This document shows, piece by piece, positions 48,706 through 62,973 of a stretch of DNA of 64,000 nt (positions within the stretch are counted from its first letter, which is position 1; each line of letters starts with the position of its first letter). Below the pieces are notes generated by a model, which saw only the letters and a program-made list of their open reading frames with translations, was not told the origin of the DNA and did no database searches. The DNA is taken from contig JAQQAL010000010.1 of NCBI GenBank assembly GCA_028532855.1, positions 1 through 64,000 on the forward strand, in the 5' to 3' direction. This DNA comes from Candidatus Thalassospirochaeta sargassi. Its GTDB lineage: Bacteria > Spirochaetota > Spirochaetia > UBA9216. Position numbers and translations under genes: made by a program.

Positions 48706-50442
48706 ATGGAAAAAAAAGATGTACTTGAAGAATTGTCATATTCACTTTCCGAAAAAGAACGAATTACACTGCTCGAAAGAATAAGTAAAAGTGCTGGAAT
48801 TGCTGTAAACGAGGAAAATGAAGATACTCCTGAACACAAACAGCAGGAAAAAAATACTTACGTCGAAAATGAACTGAGAAATCTGAGCTGGTTTCGACGG
48901 TTTATTTTGATGATTCGGTGCAGAATTAGCAGCCGGGAAATGGCTGATATAGTCATTTCTCAGCGCATGAAACAGCTTAAAAAAAGTATATCGAGGAAGC
49001 AGCAGGGGGTAACCGGTTTTGAAAGCCGGAACCTTACTCCAGAATTCGGCGAAAAGGTTTTCAATCTGTATTCGCGAACACTGGCATTCAGGGATATCTA
49101 CAGAAAGCTATGGCTTGAACCGGGCGTATATGAGTCAGGATGTCTTTTTGTAATAAGATCAATGTATGAAGATACTAAAAACCGTCTTGATGAGTTTATT
49201 TCAATGGATGAATTAGTGGAGCTTTATGCAGATAGCGGAAAAAAGGAGGATCTGGTAAAAGAAGTTGATTCACGGATAAAAGAATACAGCGATTTAGTCC
49301 CGGAGATTCTGTACAGTGAAATAGAGAAGAGTATTGCTCCGATGTATAAGCTAAAGGATCTTGTTTTGTTCCCTTACACAGCTTTTTTTCAGAAATTCAG
49401 TTTTACTCCTAACAGGACTGACGGCAAACATTTCTTTAAAAATGCTTCAGCTATGCTCTGCCTTGATCATCTTAAAAGTCTGTACATTGCTGTTATGTCA
49501 GCTTCTGAGTTAGATGAACATGTCCCATTAAACAAGTTTCTGATAGAATTTATAAAATCGCTTGATGACAGCTCTGCAATGCCGGAAGGCTTTAATGATG
49601 AGTTGAGAAAGCTGATTAACAGTGCAAAGCTTTTTGCGCGCAGCATGCCTATTCTTGAAATTATTCAGTATTTCAGGAAGGAGCCTTATCTCAGGATAAA
49701 TTATTCTACAAGAAAATTAAGCTTTAAGGAGTTTTATACCAGCGTTCTTCACAGGAAACTGAAGGATGAAATAATCAAACTTTATCCTGAAGTACAGAAA
49801 CAGTACATTGAACGGGAAATTGAAAGAATTTTTGAAGGAAAGAATTTTCAGGAATTCAGAAACTATCGAATGTACGCCAGCATCGATCATCAGAAGATGG
49901 GGCTTCCTTTTTTTACACATACTAAATCTCTGAATGTTCTGTATAACTATATAAAATCTTTCTATCAGTCCAATTTAAGTGATGTTATAGCCATTCTTGA
50001 GAAGGGTATATTATCGCAGAACAGGATAACCCGGGACAGGATGATAGGTTATTCGGTCGCTCTGCAGGAACTTGAAGATAAGATAAGTTCTTCTGATAAA
50101 TCTCTAGCCCCCGACGAAGAAGATGGAAAGGTTTTTCACAAATTGAGGATGACCCTTGTCTCTGATACTGCGCAGCAGAGGATGTACCGATCTCTTGTCG
50201 TAAAGAAAAACCGTGAGGTGAAGTCGTTGATAGACTGGGGAGATGAGGCTCTGGGCGGACTTGAAAAGATCTTTGACGAACTTATTGCCAGCGAAGCAAA
50301 TGCAATTAAGGTTCAGCTGAACAAGCATTATCTGATGCGCGGTAAATCCATCACCCTTGTAAGCCTGCTGAAGCGACGCTCAAATGAGCTGAGGGATTTC
50401 AGAAGGCTGATGGCGCAGATTACCAAGATGGAACTTGATTGA
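48706..50442 (+). CDS. Large soluble protein of unknown function (spirochaete type)
   Basis: 578 residues, charged and largely helical, no signal peptide and no clear membrane helix. It resembles long cytosolic proteins restricted to Treponema-like spirochaetes (possibly the DUF5312 group; recalled, not verified). It starts 7 bases after thiN with the ATG preceded by GAGG. It is convergent with the SPFH-like gene. Confidence 0.6.
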   Translation: MEKKDVLEELSYSLSEKERITLLERISKSAGIAVNEENEDTPEHKQQEKNTYVENELRNLSWFRRFILMIRCRISSREMADIVISQRMKQLKKSISRKQQGVTGFESRNLTPEFGEKVFNLYSRTLAFRDIYRKLWLEPGVYESGCLFVIRSMYEDTKNRLDEFISMDELVELYADSGKKEDLVKEVDSRIKEYSDLVPEILYSEIEKSIAPMYKLKDLVLFPYTAFFQKFSFTPNRTDGKHFFKNASAMLCLDHLKSLYIAVMSASELDEHVPLNKFLIEFIKSLDDSSAMPEGFNDELRKLINSAKLFARSMPILEIIQYFRKEPYLRINYSTRKLSFKEFYTSVLHRKLKDEIIKLYPEVQKQYIEREIERIFEGKNFQEFRNYRMYASIDHQKMGLPFFTHTKSLNVLYNYIKSFYQSNLSDVIAILEKGILSQNRITRDRMIGYSVALQELEDKISSSDKSLAPDEEDGKVFHKLRMTLVSDTAQQRMYRSLVVKKNREVKSLIDWGDEALGGLEKIFDELIASEANAIKVQLNKHYLMRGKSITLVSLLKRRSNELRDFRRLMAQITKMELD

Positions 50443-50452
50443 TCATCCCTGA

Positions 50453-51376
50453 TTAATTGCTTCCACGCATCAGCTGTTGTAGTTCTGCTTCGGAGTCATC
50501 GGATGCGGGCGATGATAAATCGATAGCCGGTAATAATCCCTTTGCGTCGTCAGGAAAAATTGCATAATAATCTATTAACGCAGGATATTTGGAAAAAAGT
50601 GCGCCATACTTTTCAAGGATTTCCAGTTTGGCGGATTCTTCAACAAGCCTGCTGGTAGTTTTTTCAAGCGACATCTTTTCTATATCACTGTGAAACTTCT
50701 CCATCTCGAAATACTGTCTCCTGCCTTCGGCATAAAGTGCAAGATCAGGAAAATTGATATTTACCGGAACGAATGAAACAAAATCGAGGTAGGGATAGGC
50801 TTCGCCTAGCTTATTCTTTAAGTCATCCTCCATAAGAGAGTAGTTGTAGGAAATCCTGTTCATATAATCGTAATCCTCAGCCATCGTTCTGATAAAGCCT
50901 GATGCGTCGGATGCAAGCCCTGTTTCAATCTCATCAATCCAGCTTTCAAAATTTATTTCACGAAGAAATTCATCAGAAGCAAGCTTGTTGAGAGTTTCTG
51001 CTTTTACGGTGTAGACAATATCAAAGCTGTATGAGTATTCAAATGAGGGATTACCTTCAAGGTACATGCCGTAGAGTTCGGCTGAGGGCAGTTCGCCTTC
51101 GAGGCTCACCCTTTCTGATTTAGGAAACAATAGAAATTTTTCCATAGAAAGGTTCATCGGTATCAGCCCCTGCCACTCAAAACGGAATTCACCGGGTTTC
51201 ACAACATCGTGATCCCAGCCGTTACCGGTGTATTTTGTGAAAATCACCCCGTATGTGTCAGCAGGAAGCTGAAACTGGTAATATCCGAAGTAAAAAACAG
51301 CCCCGACAGCGGCAAGAATAAGTAGAAGAATAATACTGCGTTTAATGCGTTTGCCGATTTTAGAGCGCTTTTTCAT
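50453..51376 (-). CDS. Membrane-anchored SPFH/band-7-like protein
   Basis: 307 residues. One N-terminal helix (about 14-32) followed by a region that reads like the start of a band-7 domain (YGVIFTKYTGNGWDHDVVKPGEFRF), then helices rich in Glu/Leu. No strict signature, so the family is tentative. It starts 1 base after the HAD gene's end on the same strand. Confidence 0.55.
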   Translation of the reverse strand: MKKRSKIGKRIKRSIILLLILAAVGAVFYFGYYQFQLPADTYGVIFTKYTGNGWDHDVVKPGEFRFEWQGLIPMNLSMEKFLLFPKSERVSLEGELPSAELYGMYLEGNPSFEYSYSFDIVYTVKAETLNKLASDEFLREINFESWIDEIETGLASDASGFIRTMAEDYDYMNRISYNYSLMEDDLKNKLGEAYPYLDFVSFVPVNINFPDLALYAEGRRQYFEMEKFHSDIEKMSLEKTTSRLVEESAKLEILEKYGALFSKYPALIDYYAIFPDDAKGLLPAIDLSSPASDDSEAELQQLMRGSN

Positions 51377-55984: not shown

Positions 55985-58900
55985 ATGAAAAGAAAGATTT
56001 TTATTATAATATTAGCGGTTTTATCTGCTTTTGCTGTATCAGCGGACGGAGACGAAACAGTAGATTTACTGAAGTCTCCTGATATTATGGCTTCCGGCGG
56101 TAGCTATACTTCAACATTATCGCCAATGTCGGATATATACAATCCGGCTGCATCGGCGCTGCAGCAGAGGCTCGCATTTAATATTAATTATATAGCGCTT
56201 TTCGGCGATAATACCCTGAGCGGCTATAACGGTACAGCGTTGAACCTGGGCGCCGCAATACCGCTTCGTATCGGAGTTATAACTGCCGGCGGGTATTTCC
56301 TGGGGACCGACTCACTCGACGAGATTGACGCCGGTGTTCAGGGAGGTTTCAGAACCGGATTCGCAAAAGAACTTTATCCGGGATTGCTTACAGGAATTGG
56401 TATTAACCTTGGGTTCGGAGAAAGCTGGGCCTTATCAGCTGATCTTGGTTTTATAAAAGAAGAAGGCGACCTCGGTTTTATAAAGGATATGAAGTGGGGG
56501 GTTGTGCTTGGTGAACTCGGATACTCAGGATTCAATACCACTGATTATTCCTCCGTTTTTACTCCGGGCGGCGGAATCAGTTTTGACCTGCTGGATAAGG
56601 AGAAGATTAATTTCGGTGTTAATGCTGATCTTTCATTTCCGGGTTTTATCGAAAGTATGAACCTGAACCTCGGGGGCGATCTGGAGCTGTTTGATGTAAT
56701 TGGACTTCAGTTTTCATCCAGGATGGATCTTTCTGAACTCATTGAAGGGGACCCCTCGGGACTGGTTCCTTCATTAGGAGTTTATGTTAATCTGAAAACA
56801 AATTTTGAAGATGACGACCTTTCAAAGCGGGGTTGGTCGCAGAACGATGTAAGAACCTCTGTTTCCGCCGCTCCCATGCGGAACGGTTTATGGGCTGTTG
56901 GAGCCGGCATCAACGCAGAACTTGGGGTAATAGATGAATCTGCACCGGAGATAATGCTTGATCTGTCGGAATTTTTCGGAGAGGTCAAAACGGACGGCAT
57001 TGAATCAGATGATCAAGAAGCTGATGACGACGGCACTGATGACGACGGCACTGATGATGACGGCACTGATGACGACGGTGTAAAAGAAGTTTCTTTGAAA
57101 AGTGGAAAATCTCTGAAGACTATTAGAAATGTCGCCGAGGGGAATAAAAAAAATAACGATAAAAAATACATATCCTACAGTGAATATAATCCAGGAAATA
57201 TGGATGAAGGGCCTGATGGAGAAAGAATCGTTACTTATATATCACCTAATAATGACGGTATTAAAGACTTCGTTGAAATCCCGGTAAGTATCACAGATAC
57301 GAGGTACATAAAGGGTTTTTCTTTCATCATTGAAGACGAAGAAGGAAATGAGATAAAAAAGATTGAAAACAAGGAAAAAAGACCTGAAAATGCAGGTTTT
57401 TTGAATTTCTTTAAAAGAATTTTTTATGTCGAAAAAGGTGTAGATATTCCTGAAACAATAAGATGGGAAGGCATAGGCGATGACGGCGAGGTTGCTGAAG
57501 ACGGTTTTTACCGGTTTTATATGCAGGCCTGGGATGATAATGGGAATATTTCTGAAACAGAAAAATACGGCTTAGTTGTAGATAATACTGCTCCTGCTGC
57601 AGAACTTGTGGGACTTGACGCTGAAGAAAAGATATTCAGCCCCAATAACGACGGTCTAAAAGATCAATTACCGATAGAACAGTACGGTAGTTTAGAAGAT
57701 AAATGGGTCGCAGTAATAAAAAGTGCAGATGGGAGAGTATACAAAAATTACAGCTGGCAGAACGGTTCTCCCGATAGTTTTGTCTGGGACGGCAAAGATG
57801 ACAGAAAGCTGCTTGTGCCGGACGGAGTTTATTTTTACTATCTGGAGTCTTCGGATAGGGCCGGTAATTCCTTTGAGACCGAGATTGCGAATATAATAAT
57901 TAATACCCAGACAACGCCGATAGCACTCGATGTTGACGCATCATATTTTGCTCCGGGTGCTTCAGAGGGTACAACATCGGTAAGCTTCAGGCCTGATGTT
58001 CCTGTTAAGACCGGCATACGATCCTGGTCGCTGAGTGTGGTAGATAGTTCAGGTTCAACAGTGAAAAAGTATGAAGACGGTGAAATACCTGATAGTATTG
58101 TTTATCGAGGAGAGAAAGGCAATGGATATATCAGTGAAGGAAGATACAAAGGAATTCTTGATATAAAATACATCAACGGTAATAATCCTGTTGTAGAATC
58201 GCCTGTCATTGTAGCAGATACAACCCCACCGGAGGCCTCAGCAAAGGTATCTTTAAGAGTGTTCAGTCCCAACGGAGATGGTAAAAAAGATGTAATAAAC
58301 ATTTATCAGGAAACATCGACTGAAGATGTCTGGTATGCTGAGATTACAGGTTCTGGCGGTAATGTAGTTCGCAGCTACAAATGGGTACAGAATGCAGAAT
58401 CATCTTTCAGTTGGGATGGATACGCTGAAGACGGAAGTCTTGCAGAAGACGGAAGCTACTACTACCGGTTGTATACTGAGGACAGGGCCGGAAACAGTGT
58501 GATATCAGAACCTGTCAGTTTTGAACTGGATACGGAAGAGACGCCGGTAATTCTTACAGCTGCTCCGGAAGCGTTTTCACCGAATGGAGACAGGGTGAAC
58601 GACGTATTAAATCTCACACCGATTTTGAATGTCAAAGACGGTATTCAATCGTACAAGCTGGTTATCAGCAGTACAGATGGAAAAGTTGTCAAGACTATTG
58701 CAAGTGAAGGCAGAATTAAAAATAAATTCGTTTGGGATGGAGTTACCGAAGCTGGACGGAAGGCTGATGACGGAACCTACCGTGCTGCAATAGAGGTAGT
58801 CTATGAAAAGGGTAATATATCCAATGCAGTAACCAGGGATTTTATTCTTGATACCTCTTTTCCTGTTATTGACGCAGATATAGATTTAACACTGTTTTCA

Positions 58901-60214
58901 CCCGATGAGGACGGCTTGAAGGATCAAATAGTTATCTCACAGAAAACAAGCGAAGAGGAGCTTATTTCCGCCCTGATTAAAGATGAAACGGGGAAGGTTG
59001 TAAGGGCGTATAACTGGGAAGGTTCAGCCGGCAATATAATCTGGGATGGAACAGACGAAAACGGTAATAAGGTCGACGATGGAATATACAGTTATTTGGT
59101 TTCTGCAGAAGACAAGTCCGGTAACAGGACTGAAAAGACAATAGACAGAATTGAGGTAGATAACAGGCAGACTACCGTATTTATTACGGCAAGCAGCAAG
59201 GGCTTTACCCCGGACGGTGACGGAAGCAACGACAGAATGGAATTTGCTACTATGGCTACCCTGAAAGAAGGCGTTGAAAGCTGGAAGGTTGTAATAAAGA
59301 AAAATGGCAGCCAGACGGTAAAAACATTCTCCGGAGATATACTGCCTGAAAAAATTATATGGGATGGAAAGTCGGATGAAGGTATTGTAATTGAGGGTGA
59401 GTTCAGTGCTGAATACAGTGTGAAATACCTGAAGGGAAATGAGCCGGAATCTATTACCAAGGAATTCAGCATAGATATTTCTGCCCCGACAGCGGTTGTA
59501 ACAGCTGCTCCCAGGCCTTTTTCTCCGGATAACGACGGTGTTGATGATGAAATCGCTATATCAATTGATGTAAGCGATGCAAGTAAAATAAGTGATTGGA
59601 AATTCGATATAGTTGATCGACAAGGTAATGAATTTACTTCCTTTGGTGGAAAGGGGGAGCCGGCACAAGAAATTATATGGGATGGAATTGGAAAGTCGGG
59701 TGCACTGGTAATTGCAGCTGAGGACTATCCTTACAGACTTACTGTGACTGACGAGTTTGGTAATACAGCAACTGAATACGGAATTATTCCTGTTGATGTT
59801 CTTGTTGTTAAAGAAGGTAATCAACTGAAAATCCGTATAGCTAGTATAACCTTCGCTCCGGACAGCGCAGAATTACGAAGGGATGATGCGGAGATCAAAG
59901 CCAAAAATGAATATGTGCTAGGGCGCCTCGCAGAGATCCTTGAGAAATATGATAGCTATAACATTCTTATAGAGGGGCATGCTGTGAGTGTATACTGGAG
60001 TGATGCCGAGAGAGCAGAGAGGGAACAGCAGGAAGAACTTCTTCCCCTATCGAAGGCAAGGGCTGAGACTGTAAAGAACTATCTTGAACAGCTCGGCGTA
60101 GCAGGAAGAAGGATGTCCACCGAGGGTATCGGGGGAGAGAATCCGGTTGTTCCGCATAGCGATCTTGAGAACCGCTGGAAAAACAGAAGAGTAGAGTTCA
60201 TTCTACTTAAATAG
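55985..60214 (+). CDS. Giant surface protein: barrel-like N-terminus, FlgD-Ig-like repeats, OmpA C-terminus
   Basis: 1409 residues. Signal peptide about 1-20 (LAVLSAFAVSA-DG). Residues 25-330 read as outer-membrane beta-barrel strands. An Asp-rich linker (345-366) is made of DDDGT repeats. Eight Ig/FlgD-like units follow with a period near 104 residues, each opening with F-[ST]-P-[ND]-x-DG (near 419, 551, 656 degenerate, 760, 864, 972, 1075, 1179) and ending W-DG-x-x-DG-Y. The C-terminal 120 residues are OmpA-like (FAPDSAELR, ILIEGHAVS, RAETVKNYLEQLGV, NRRVEFILL), binding peptidoglycan. It should tether the outer membrane to the wall. Confidence 0.82.
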   Translation: MKRKIFIIILAVLSAFAVSADGDETVDLLKSPDIMASGGSYTSTLSPMSDIYNPAASALQQRLAFNINYIALFGDNTLSGYNGTALNLGAAIPLRIGVITAGGYFLGTDSLDEIDAGVQGGFRTGFAKELYPGLLTGIGINLGFGESWALSADLGFIKEEGDLGFIKDMKWGVVLGELGYSGFNTTDYSSVFTPGGGISFDLLDKEKINFGVNADLSFPGFIESMNLNLGGDLELFDVIGLQFSSRMDLSELIEGDPSGLVPSLGVYVNLKTNFEDDDLSKRGWSQNDVRTSVSAAPMRNGLWAVGAGINAELGVIDESAPEIMLDLSEFFGEVKTDGIESDDQEADDDGTDDDGTDDDGTDDDGVKEVSLKSGKSLKTIRNVAEGNKKNNDKKYISYSEYNPGNMDEGPDGERIVTYISPNNDGIKDFVEIPVSITDTRYIKGFSFIIEDEEGNEIKKIENKEKRPENAGFLNFFKRIFYVEKGVDIPETIRWEGIGDDGEVAEDGFYRFYMQAWDDNGNISETEKYGLVVDNTAPAAELVGLDAEEKIFSPNNDGLKDQLPIEQYGSLEDKWVAVIKSADGRVYKNYSWQNGSPDSFVWDGKDDRKLLVPDGVYFYYLESSDRAGNSFETEIANIIINTQTTPIALDVDASYFAPGASEGTTSVSFRPDVPVKTGIRSWSLSVVDSSGSTVKKYEDGEIPDSIVYRGEKGNGYISEGRYKGILDIKYINGNNPVVESPVIVADTTPPEASAKVSLRVFSPNGDGKKDVINIYQETSTEDVWYAEITGSGGNVVRSYKWVQNAESSFSWDGYAEDGSLAEDGSYYYRLYTEDRAGNSVISEPVSFELDTEETPVILTAAPEAFSPNGDRVNDVLNLTPILNVKDGIQSYKLVISSTDGKVVKTIASEGRIKNKFVWDGVTEAGRKADDGTYRAAIEVVYEKGNISNAVTRDFILDTSFPVIDADIDLTLFSPDEDGLKDQIVISQKTSEEELISALIKDETGKVVRAYNWEGSAGNIIWDGTDENGNKVDDGIYSYLVSAEDKSGNRTEKTIDRIEVDNRQTTVFITASSKGFTPDGDGSNDRMEFATMATLKEGVESWKVVIKKNGSQTVKTFSGDILPEKIIWDGKSDEGIVIEGEFSAEYSVKYLKGNEPESITKEFSIDISAPTAVVTAAPRPFSPDNDGVDDEIAISIDVSDASKISDWKFDIVDRQGNEFTSFGGKGEPAQEIIWDGIGKSGALVIAAEDYPYRLTVTDEFGNTATEYGIIPVDVLVVKEGNQLKIRIASITFAPDSAELRRDDAEIKAKNEYVLGRLAEILEKYDSYNILIEGHAVSVYWSDAERAEREQQEELLPLSKARAETVKNYLEQLGVAGRRMSTEGIGGENPVVPHSDLENRWKNRRVEFILLK
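57023..57082 (+). repeat. 15-bp tandem repeat, four copies, coding DDDGT
   Basis: GATGACGACGGCACT twice, then GATGATGACGGCACT and a diverged fourth copy. It stays in frame and encodes the Asp-rich linker of the surface protein. The near-identity at DNA level makes copy-number variation likely. Confidence 0.9.
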
Positions 60215-60229
60215 ATTTGGAAATAATCA

Positions 60230-61219
60230 TTGAAGAAGATAATTGTTTTATTAATTGTATTACTTGTAATAGTAATAATTGCTGCAGGTGGATTGTTATT
60301 TGCAGCAGTAAAAATAAATTCCGCACCTGATAATATGCCCGACCAGACCTTTTTTCGTGTTAACAAGGGAGATAATGCCGGACTGATAGCGGAAAACCTT
60401 TTTTATCAGGGAATGATAAGAAGCAGTACATTTTTTAATCTTTATGTAAGGATTATGAATACGGGCGGGGATATGAAGTCCGGACTGTACAGGATAAAAG
60501 CCGGAGCATCTACAGCAGAAATACATGATATTCTTCTGCAGGGCAGCGAAGAGCTGTTCAAGGTGGCTGTACCTCCGGGGCTTACCTCAACTGAAATTGC
60601 ACTGATTCTTGAGGATTCAGGCGTCACTGATGCTGAGACATTCTTATCTGAAGTTGAGAAGCAGGAGGCTGAAGGTTTTCTTTTCCCGGATACATATTAT
60701 TTCCCGCTGGAGTACCCGGCTGATAAGGTTGTAGCATATATGGTTGAGGTGTTCTTCAATGAGGCGGAATCAGTGTATCCGGCCATACATGAAATGAGTA
60801 AAGAAGTACTCATGGAAAAGGTAATAATGGCTTCGGTTGTAGAACGAGAATATCGGCGGGATGACGAAGCAGCAAGGATTGCATCGGTGTTTTATAACCG
60901 GATAGACGAGAATATGTATCTTGGATCATGTGCGACAGTCGTATATATAATTACGGAAATTGAGGGCAGGGAGCATCCTGAAAGGCTGCTTTATCGTGAT
61001 TTGGATATAGAATCGTCTTATAATACATATAGACATAAGGGGCTGCCGCCGGGACCGATATGCAATCCGGGGCTGACTGCTTTGAATGCAGCATTTAATC
61101 CTGATGATACTGACTATCTTTATTTTTTACTTGAGGATCCGGCTCAAGGAAATCACACATTTTCAAGAAGTCTTGCTGAGCATAACAGATCATATGAATT
61201 GTATATAAAAGGGAAATGA
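60230..61219 (+). CDS. mltG: Endolytic murein transglycosylase MltG
   Basis: 329 residues: an N-terminal membrane helix (4-24), a LysM-like region (VNKGDNAGLIAENLFYQ), and the YceG catalytic domain with the conserved Glu in ASVVEREYR and HKGLPPGPICNPGLTAL. It cuts nascent glycan strands and limits their length. TTG start; overlaps dnaG by 4 bases (ATGA). Confidence 0.92.
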   Translation: MKKIIVLLIVLLVIVIIAAGGLLFAAVKINSAPDNMPDQTFFRVNKGDNAGLIAENLFYQGMIRSSTFFNLYVRIMNTGGDMKSGLYRIKAGASTAEIHDILLQGSEELFKVAVPPGLTSTEIALILEDSGVTDAETFLSEVEKQEAEGFLFPDTYYFPLEYPADKVVAYMVEVFFNEAESVYPAIHEMSKEVLMEKVIMASVVEREYRRDDEAARIASVFYNRIDENMYLGSCATVVYIITEIEGREHPERLLYRDLDIESSYNTYRHKGLPPGPICNPGLTALNAAFNPDDTDYLYFLLEDPAQGNHTFSRSLAEHNRSYELYIKGK

Positions 61220-62973
61220 GTAGAAACGTAAGAGACGAAATAAACAGTAAATTAAATATTGTAGATGTTGTCGGGAAATATCTTACTCTGAAGAGAGCCG
61301 GCAACAGGTACATAGGTCTCTGTCCATTTCATAACGAGAAAACCCCTTCGTTTTCAGTAACCCCGGACAGTAATCTTTTTTATTGTTTCGGCTGCCATAA
61401 GGGTGGAACAATATTCGATTTCATTATGGAAATTGAGAATATGGATTTCCCGGAGTCGCTGAAGTTTCTTGCAGAGAAGGCCGGGGTTGAGCTTGACGAC
61501 CGAAGCGGTATCAGCAGTCCCGACAGAAAAAAAAGAGATGCTCTTAAAGAGCTGTACGGCAGGGTTGCTGGCAGTCTTGAATTTATTCTTGAAAACAGGA
61601 ATGAAGCTGCTGTTGCGCGTGATTATCTGAAGGCTCGCGGGCTGACTGATGAAATCATAAAAGAATTCAGGATAGGCTGGGCTCCGGATGACAGGACCTG
61701 GCTGTTAAAATTTCTGAAGACTAAAGGCTATTCAGAGAAATTTCTTGCAGAAAGCGGTTTGTTTTCACAGCGCGGCCTTGAATATCCTTTGTTTTCAGGG
61801 AGAATTATGTTTCCTCTAACTAATACCGCCGGTGATGTGATTGGATTCAGCGGCAGAACTCTGAAAGATTTCGGACCTAAATATATAAATTCTCCCGAAA
61901 CACCAATTTTTTACAAGAAAAAAAATCTTTATGGTTTAAGTAATTCTATAAAGGCTATCAGGCAGGCTGGTTACTTCATACTCTGTGAGGGGCAGATGGA
62001 TGTAATTGCATACCATCAGGCCGGTATTAAAAATACAATTGCACCTTTGGGGACTGCCTATACATCTGACCAGGCAATGCTGTTGAAGAGATATGCTGAT
62101 AAGGCTGTACTTTCTTTTGATGGTGATGCCGCAGGGCAGAAAGCGATAAAGAAGGCGATAATAATAAATGAAGGCCGAGATATTAAAACGAAAGTAGCTG
62201 TTTTTGGCGATAAGGAAGACCCTGCGGATTTACTGCTAAATAAGGGTGAAAAGGCATTGCATAAAGTATTAAAATCTACTATAAATAGCTTTGATTATAT
62301 TCTGGAAAATGCAATAAATGTATCCAATATAAGAAGCCCGGAAGGTAAAGAGCAGATTATCCGCCTGATGGAGGACTATCTAAACAGTTTAAGCTCAGAG
62401 GTTAGAAGAGCCGGCTGTATAAATGAGATAGCTGAAAGACTTGGCGTAGATAGCAGTTCGGTCCAGAAGGACCTGAGGCGCGGGCCTGGAGCACCGGAAC
62501 GTAATCAACCTGCGGGACAAAGAAGCAACCGGCAGAATCGTCTAAGCTCAGAATTATTTCTGATGATTGCTGTCGTAGTAAGCAGGGAAGAATTTACATG
62601 GGTTCGAGGCAGGATAGACATCGACGATCTTGAAGATGAAAGAGCAAGAAAGATTTTTATCGCCCTTGAAGAATGTTACAGAAACGAGGAAAACGGAATA
62701 GATTCAGTTCTTAACAGATTAGCGGATGAAGAACTAACCTCTCTGATAGCTGAGAAAGTGACGTCCGAAGAATACAGTATAAACACTGAAGAACTGATAA
62801 AAGATTCGGTCAGGAAGATAAAGAAAAATAGTCTGTTGAATAAGAGAGAGGAAATCGTTAGAAAGTTGAAGAACATCTCATCAAATACCGAAAGCGGTGT
62901 TAATGAAAAAGATCTTCTCTCCGAAAAGATCTATATAGATCAGGAAATTGAAAAACTGAGGGTAGGGATATAA
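61216..62973 (+). CDS. dnaG: DNA primase
   Basis: 585 residues. CHC2 zinc finger with Cys36, His39, Cys57, Cys60 (CPFH, CFGC); Toprim core with LCEGQMDV (acidic Glu) and SFDGDAAG; C-terminal helicase-interaction region (from about 440) is divergent. Synthesises replication primers. It lies in the conserved macromolecular-synthesis order, directly before rpoD with a TAATG overlap. Confidence 0.96.
   Translation: MSRNVRDEINSKLNIVDVVGKYLTLKRAGNRYIGLCPFHNEKTPSFSVTPDSNLFYCFGCHKGGTIFDFIMEIENMDFPESLKFLAEKAGVELDDRSGISSPDRKKRDALKELYGRVAGSLEFILENRNEAAVARDYLKARGLTDEIIKEFRIGWAPDDRTWLLKFLKTKGYSEKFLAESGLFSQRGLEYPLFSGRIMFPLTNTAGDVIGFSGRTLKDFGPKYINSPETPIFYKKKNLYGLSNSIKAIRQAGYFILCEGQMDVIAYHQAGIKNTIAPLGTAYTSDQAMLLKRYADKAVLSFDGDAAGQKAIKKAIIINEGRDIKTKVAVFGDKEDPADLLLNKGEKALHKVLKSTINSFDYILENAINVSNIRSPEGKEQIIRLMEDYLNSLSSEVRRAGCINEIAERLGVDSSSVQKDLRRGPGAPERNQPAGQRSNRQNRLSSELFLMIAVVVSREEFTWVRGRIDIDDLEDERARKIFIALEECYRNEENGIDSVLNRLADEELTSLIAEKVTSEEYSINTEELIKDSVRKIKKNSLLNKREEIVRKLKNISSNTESGVNEKDLLSEKIYIDQEIEKLRVGI

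Follow-up and report, generated by a model that had tools for sequence, protein, structure and literature searches.

Within a 64,000-nucleotide stretch of DNA from Candidatus Thalassospirochaeta sargassi (contig JAQQAL010000010.1, positions 1 to 64,000; hereafter the window), an intact open reading frame on the forward strand, from 55985 to 60214 with an ATG start and the stop counted in, encodes a single protein of 1409 residues. The chain runs from a signal peptide through a 14-stranded FadL/PorV-like barrel and eight immunoglobulin-like (Ig) units of the FlgD/CHU_C type to a C-terminal OmpA domain. The first-pass annotation of this DNA had proposed that a barrel, FlgD-like repeats and an OmpA anchor are joined in one chain, and this architecture was upheld by Pfam, by a profile hidden Markov model (HMM) of the repeat unit, which finds eight units, and by a predicted barrel. 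The Pfam matches all lie above cut-off: CHU_C (117.7 bits) and FlgD_ig (110.9 bits) on the repeats and OmpA (PF00691; 50.4 bits against a cut-off of 27.2) at residues 1299–1401. The parts of the gene are as follows, with the evidence for each in brackets.

55985..60214, forward strand: whole gene, barrel, eight-unit rod and putative OmpA tether (open reading frame, Pfam, unit HMM)
55985..56044, forward strand: N-terminal signal peptide, residues ~1–20, AVSA/D (sequence reading; model helix at 2–15, predicted local distance difference test score, pLDDT, <50 at 18–22)
56045..56944, forward strand: predicted FadL/PorV-like 14-stranded outer-membrane barrel with N-terminal hatch helices, NPA at residues 53–55 (model, fold match, alignments A1 and A2)
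56945..57232, forward strand: acidic linker with DDGTDDDG repeats (alignment A1)
57233..57613, forward strand: rod unit 1, first cap, with a conserved insertion (unit HMM start at 417; first-position profile best in 102 of 102 eight-unit rows)
57614..57925, forward strand: rod unit 2, A type (unit HMM, position profiles)
57926..58243, forward strand: rod unit 3, B type, degenerate motifs (motif scan, unit HMM, position profiles)
58244..58552, forward strand: rod unit 4, A type (unit HMM, position profiles)
58553..58876, forward strand: rod unit 5, B type (unit HMM, position profiles)
58877..59182, forward strand: rod unit 6, A type (unit HMM, position profiles)
59183..59497, forward strand: rod unit 7, B type (unit HMM, position profiles)
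59498..59794, forward strand: rod unit 8, last cap, highly conserved (alignment A1, unit HMM, position profiles)
59795..60211, forward strand: OmpA-like putative peptidoglycan-anchor domain with an altered pocket, GHAV...LLPLSKARA for GHTD...NxxLSxxRA (Pfam OmpA, pocket alignment)

No lipobox was seen in the signal peptide, which was read from the sequence and not with a signal-peptide program, and the acidic linker is a long insertion missing from most of the 21 rows of alignment A1. Structure prediction bore out the N-terminal beta-barrel that had until then been unverified: an AlphaFold model built with 61 aligned sequences has 14 strands after short helices (pLDDT 90.1; predicted template modelling score, pTM, 0.84). 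Foldseek ranked FadL first and a chain of the type IX secretion system (T9SS), 8gl6_F, fourth; with VIA-align, FadL reached Z 28.4 (root-mean-square deviation 2.8 over 256 residues) and 8gl6_F Z 27.8, rows of the FadL, TodX and PorV types lying between 23.2 and 28.4 and those of OmpG, which come next, at 18.5 or below. We take 8gl6_F and 6h3i_F to be PorV. The NPA hatch motif is invariant in the 21 A1 rows; in A2, with 61 rows, N53 and P54 never vary and A55 is kept in at least 90%.

By prediction, the protein has the two structural marks of the FadL superfamily, a 14-stranded barrel and an N-terminal hatch, and it shares with FadL, TodX and PorV the fold (Z 23–28) and the conserved NPA. It differs from them in that its family joins the barrel, by fusion or in an operon, to a long rod and OmpA domain, and in having no convincing sequence-family match: the FadL family PF03349 gave none for the window protein and only one, at E 0.011, among 61 members, and a barrel profile found nothing credible among PDB sequences (one chain, E 0.57). 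A fold search of a viral library with the barrel model was uninformative. The FadL fold and the hatch motif, which is essential for the conformational change of FadL according to excerpts of PMC8407342, raise the alternative that the protein is in the first place a FadL-type transporter of hydrophobic molecules, its rod and OmpA domain serving only to fix the channel over the wall or to pass on substrate or partners. We consider this improbable, given the near absence of family matches among the members, and it would leave the near-constant rod length and the association with flagellin described below unexplained. The PorV-type chains among the best folds, together with the CHU_C score, could also be taken to indicate a T9SS-related system with a role in secretion, a reading to which we give almost no credence: the CHU_C units are internal with the OmpA domain after them, and no SprA_N match was found in the organism's own genome, in a search in which the control genomes gave none either. 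As a T9SS cargo the protein was rejected, CHU_C not standing at the very C-terminus (its best stretch, residues 549–625, lies inside the rod).

An even-stranded outer-membrane barrel places its C-terminus in the periplasm, and because the predicted barrel is even-stranded, the rod should run towards the peptidoglycan. With the window's own units left out of its construction, the unit HMM finds the eight units of this rod at E 4e-21 or better each, and 200 shuffles of the chain gave no match to it at E up to 10. The motif F-[STA]-P occurs at residues 551, 655, 760, 864, 971, 1074 and 1179, with ISPNNDG at 418 in unit 1 recognized by eye, and W-[DE]-G at residues 494, 601, 810, 917, 1020, 1126 and 1232. 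It had been noted at first that every repeat but one, near residue 656, keeps its two motifs and that the rod has a 100-residue period. The degenerate repeat is indeed unit 3 (F-[STA]-P at 655), which reads FAPGASEG and YRG, but in unit 1 the F is replaced by I and WDG by WEG, and in unit 5 GDG is replaced by GDR; similarly, the spacing is 103–107 residues throughout except from unit 1 to unit 2, where it is 133. A model of the rod and OmpA domain (1002 residues; pLDDT 87.4, pTM 0.65) consists of successive beta domains with an OmpA-like end, so that the Ig and OmpA folds, like the barrel, are predicted ones. Among the 50 matches listed for the rod model against PDB folds, we found generic Ig-rich chains (complement, alpha-2-macroglobulin, mastigoneme) at template modelling scores of about 0.1–0.26 and root-mean-square deviations of 34–69 Å, which are uninformative. 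The units share their family and the F-S-P-N-x-D-G motif with the FlgD hook-cap protein and CHU_C, which act as a cap or a secretion signal, whereas here they would form a tandem spacer. FlgD membership itself was rejected (FlgD equivalog 84.2 bits against a cut-off of 230), the Ig part alone matching.

Position-specific profiles, built from relatives that partly overlap the tested species, revealed an order within the array. Across 102 eight-unit rows, which hold the window gene twice (as the window and as L220; G and L numbers are our labels for genomes and loci), 777 of 816 units scored best at their own position and the other 39 were assigned to a position of the same parity, A/B parity being broken by 0 of 816. 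As read from these profiles, the rule of the array is a first cap (unit 1), three A (even)–B (odd) pairs and a last cap (unit 8). The same pair rule, with other numbers of pairs, is seen in the 12- and 16-hit proteins, in the four-unit rods L088 and L092 of other classes, in the four-unit L065 and in a six-unit paralogue, L219; exceptions are L091, in which each of the final three units is assigned to cap 8, and L089 and L090, with weak or missing assignments. In the nine-hit rows two hits of the same parity follow each other where one unit looks split. In clear cases, then, rod length, as judged from the profile assignments, varies between species by whole pairs.

The number of units among relatives was surveyed as raw counts of unit-HMM hits, with rods cut by contig ends excluded, at 100 loci (one per genome, from 100 of the 138 barrel-positive genomes) and a further 20 taken from whole-chain profile matches. 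As a spacer predicts, exactly eight units were found in 84 of the 91 complete barrel-linked rods of the window's class, the others having 4, 12 or 16; the 57 fused rods comprise 51 with eight units, one with four, four with twelve and one with sixteen, and among the split rods eight is found in 33 of 34, the remaining one (G356) having four. This class count excludes the window gene itself, includes among the fused eights a second copy in G305 and leaves out the cut rods L054 (G376, one unit), L073, L083 (12 hits), L238 and L239. In other classes, 20 complete rods, chosen partly by score and hence a biased sample, gave eight hits in 11, nine in four, four in three, six in one and three in one; the four nine-hit rods each have two hits close together, as if an insertion splits one unit. 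A scan of named genomes covered 80 loci, including those of Treponema lecithinolyticum, T. parvum, T. ruminis and Breznakiella homolactica. The 80 loci are the best matches to the window and overlap in species with the other sample: 78 have exactly eight hits, one has nine (two in the first unit) and one, a fragment, has eleven. Across the 102 eight-unit rows, the distance from unit 1 to unit 8 comes to 772 ± 13 residues.

Further rods were observed alongside this survey. The organism's own genome has a second one, the paralogue L219 (L219:5360-7843, contig C11), of 827 residues with an apparent plain signal peptide, six units and an OmpA domain, and no barrel. Eight-unit rods without a barrel in the locus occur in G329, G203 and G253 (L234, L236 and L237), and in G307 contigs C18 and C28 carry open frames of ~3900–5000 residues that weakly match rod units and are perhaps giant adhesins.

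The split rods, found in two lineages, offer a view of the two halves of the protein as separate genes. At 49 split loci, some of whose genes are counted from two collections, the barrel gene lies just upstream of the rod gene, the interval between them ranging from -59 to 139 bases; given this adjacency, the two parts still seem to act together without a covalent bond. The split rods begin with an apparent plain signal peptide and soon enter unit 1, via which they would probably dock on the barrel. Lipoprotein anchoring of these rods was considered and rejected, the lipobox pattern being present in one of 49, probably by chance.

At the other end of the chain, the OmpA domain recalls OmpA/OprF, in which an outer-membrane barrel is likewise followed by a C-terminal OmpA domain directed towards the peptidoglycan; there the barrel has eight strands, whereas here it is a predicted 14-stranded FadL-like one, eight Ig units intervene and the pocket for diaminopimelate (DAP) is altered. 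The canonical pocket reads TD(x)7NxxLSxxRA in the parts of PMC5104382 on which we draw, and the window protein has GHAV...LLPLSKARA in its place, with the Asp lost, Leu for Asn and the Arg kept. Tp0624 of Treponema pallidum also has a divergent spirochaete OmpA domain that has lost the canonical Asp; it has three domains, with two other N-terminal ones (PMC5104382, in part), and no barrel, as excerpts of PMC8407342 state for both OmpA-domain proteins of T. pallidum. In most spirochaete walls ornithine replaces DAP, with exceptions such as Leptospira (PMC5104382, same parts), and the loss of the DAP-binding Asp and Asn is in line with an ornithine-type wall, to which the anchor is predicted to bind. 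The pocket pattern was recognized in 190 of 201 rod rows (some genes present twice), as AN in 128, AV in 41, TD in 12 and others in 9, some of these being pattern slips; 11 gave no match. All 12 TD rows come from genomes outside the window's class.

We compared these pockets with the presence of DAP epimerase in 66 chosen genomes, in one of which (G362) the rod is cut and the pocket unseen. The epimerase was found above cut-off in 9 of 11 genomes with a TD pocket against 10 of 55 others; the two TD genomes lacking it are G047, with a weak match, and G061, with none and 71% complete. Fisher tests that ignore kinship gave p = 6e-5 (9/11 against 9/54, with G002, which has an odd pocket, left out) and, for the other classes alone, p = 0.02 (9/11 against 2/8). 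This association is what a pocket in contact with the wall would show. As separate observations, seven of the eight OmpA proteins of the organism's own genome, including the window's, are without the canonical Asp (GHTA, GHSA, GHCA, GHAV, AHAL): L001, L002, L004, L006, L007 and L008 lack it, and only L003, MotB-like by reading, keeps GHTD. Some DAP epimerase domains lie inside frames of 1245–1436 residues (G070:C21, G111:C2, G177:C16 and G081:C19), suggesting fusion with other domains.

Judging from the named matches, the phylum is Spirochaetota and the window's class Spirochaetia. Among 392 genomes of the phylum, 350 have a flagellin, 138 have a match to the barrel (129 of them in the window's class) and 261 have a match to the whole-chain profile A1 at E 1e-20, some of these partial. 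Within the class (214 genomes, the unlisted flagellin-negative ones obtained by subtraction), the whole chain is matched in 131 of the 172 genomes that have flagellin and in 2 of the 42 that lack it, and the barrel in 127 and 2, respectively; these counts are not independent, because of shared ancestry. Four flagellin-positive class genomes (G307, G351, G363 and G365) have partial A1 matches and no barrel match, and the two matches among flagellin-negative genomes fall in family f13, where the rods are longer: at least 12 units in G362 and 16 in G371. Family f9 includes the flagellin-positive G298, whose gene has eight units; the flagellin-negative genomes of genus g13 (G149, G238, G266 and G317) are absent among the barrel and A1 positives. 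The link to the flagella drawn by the first-pass annotation is partly supported, as an association blurred by the partial matches, by the two negatives that keep longer forms and by flagellated genomes that have no match. Separately, in G006, G049, G130, G142, G203, G253 and G360, which represent several families, a flagellin gene and the tether gene share a contig and stand ~6–11 kb apart.

The closest match in NCBIfam is Lsa66 (LIC10258 of Leptospira, NF053608), whose profile covers the last rod units and OmpA domain of the window protein (residues 982–1407). Lsa66 has about 580 residues (model length 581), and the window protein, at 283.4 bits against a curated cut-off of 700, is not a member. 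Ig rods are common in adhesins, and Lsa66 is reported to bind matrix molecules and plasminogen (PMC3130794, in part), from which one might suppose a surface adhesin or matrix binder whose rod lies outside the cell and whose OmpA domain merely retains it. Such a role seems most unlikely to us: the score falls far short of Lsa66 membership, a rod that extends the C-terminus of an even-stranded barrel lies in the periplasm, record titles show samples from gut and from sediment or lakes among the relatives, and adhesin arrays are usually variable, unlike this near-constant one.

Starting from what can be read in the sequences, namely the architecture, the family, the near-constant paired unit number, the gene splitting and the pocket change, we infer a periplasmic rod, wall binding and spacing, and regard a tether and spacer between the outer membrane and the peptidoglycan as the probable role of the window protein. 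The FadL/PorV-like barrel would sit in the outer membrane and its C-terminus would open to the periplasm, continuing as the eight-Ig rod, which would be roughly 30 nm long if each domain adds ~4 nm. The OmpA end would grip the ornithine-type peptidoglycan of the protoplasmic cylinder, beyond the flagella, and the whole would probably serve to fasten the outer membrane to the protoplasmic cylinder while keeping the two a set distance apart, with room for the flagella between them. In spirochaetes the peptidoglycan lies far from the outer membrane with the flagella between (excerpts of PMC5104382).

Several observations weigh against a tether and spacer of this kind. For the barrel by itself, neither Pfam nor PDB sequences offer family support; two of the three canonical pocket residues are absent from the OmpA domain of the window protein; and the nearest studied divergent domain, that of Tp0624, did not bind DAP (PMC5104382, in the parts drawn on). 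The association of pocket and epimerase is confounded, as DAP epimerase also serves lysine synthesis, and ancestry confounds flagellin, tether, pocket and epimerase alike. In addition, at E 1e-20 the whole-chain profile misses 41 of the 172 class genomes with flagellin, so flagella and a spirochaete envelope do not need the tether protein; these are 36 genomes of family f5, which we presume to be Borrelia-like, together with G056 (1.1 Mb), G221, G278, G364 and G374. Borrelia appears to lack the usual wall-associated proteins, according to excerpts of PMC8118282. Finally, the number of repeats could have stayed constant because divergent units seldom recombine, and not through selection for length.

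This last point bears on a further step, that the rod is a phylum-specific envelope ruler, quantised in Ig pairs (4, 6, 8, 12 and 16 units), which sets the flagellar gap and to which lineages add, or from which they remove, whole pairs. We advance the ruler tentatively, as possible and short of probable. The most useful rival to it, slightly less plausible in our estimation and on balance doubtful, accepts the tether and denies the ruler step only: the repeat number would be unselected and eight a frozen ancestral state. The units of the window rod are 20–39% identical in pairwise comparison and would therefore rarely recombine, and in a tree built from the barrel and the caps (110 rows) eight-unit forms stand on both sides of the deepest split. 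On the same tree, made by a quick method with a midpoint root, with nine-hit rows scored as eight and L089, with its three hits, given a separate state, unit number changed nine times, by whole pairs in the clear cases, and the split arrangement changed twice; these changes, and the eight units kept by nearly all complete split rods, speak against a frozen number.

Two genes follow the tether gene in a run, both identified by Pfam.

60230..61219, forward strand: MltG/YceG-like lytic transglycosylase gene, 15 bases downstream
61216..62973, forward strand: DNA primase gene dnaG, next in the run

In 197 loci, some species being counted twice, the first downstream gene belongs to the MltG cluster in 37, one of the next two genes is DnaG-like in 41, and in 36 there follows a third, taken for a sigma factor without a search. 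The MltG neighbour is suggestive of a role at the wall, but the run looks like a housekeeping operon. Elsewhere in the window, positions 48706–50442 encode a DUF5312 protein of 578 residues that adjoins a thiamin pyrophosphokinase gene, and positions 50453–51376 (reverse strand) a 307-residue protein without a Pfam match, in which a single hydrophobic stretch near the N-terminus was picked out by eye.

We recognized no description of this architecture in the open literature searched. For the question of how spirochaetes keep an outer membrane around moving internal flagella, this rod family offers a candidate tether found widely across the class. Because the length of this candidate can be counted in units, the question of periplasm width becomes a direct genetic test, and natural forms with 4, 8, 12 and 16 units exist for comparison.

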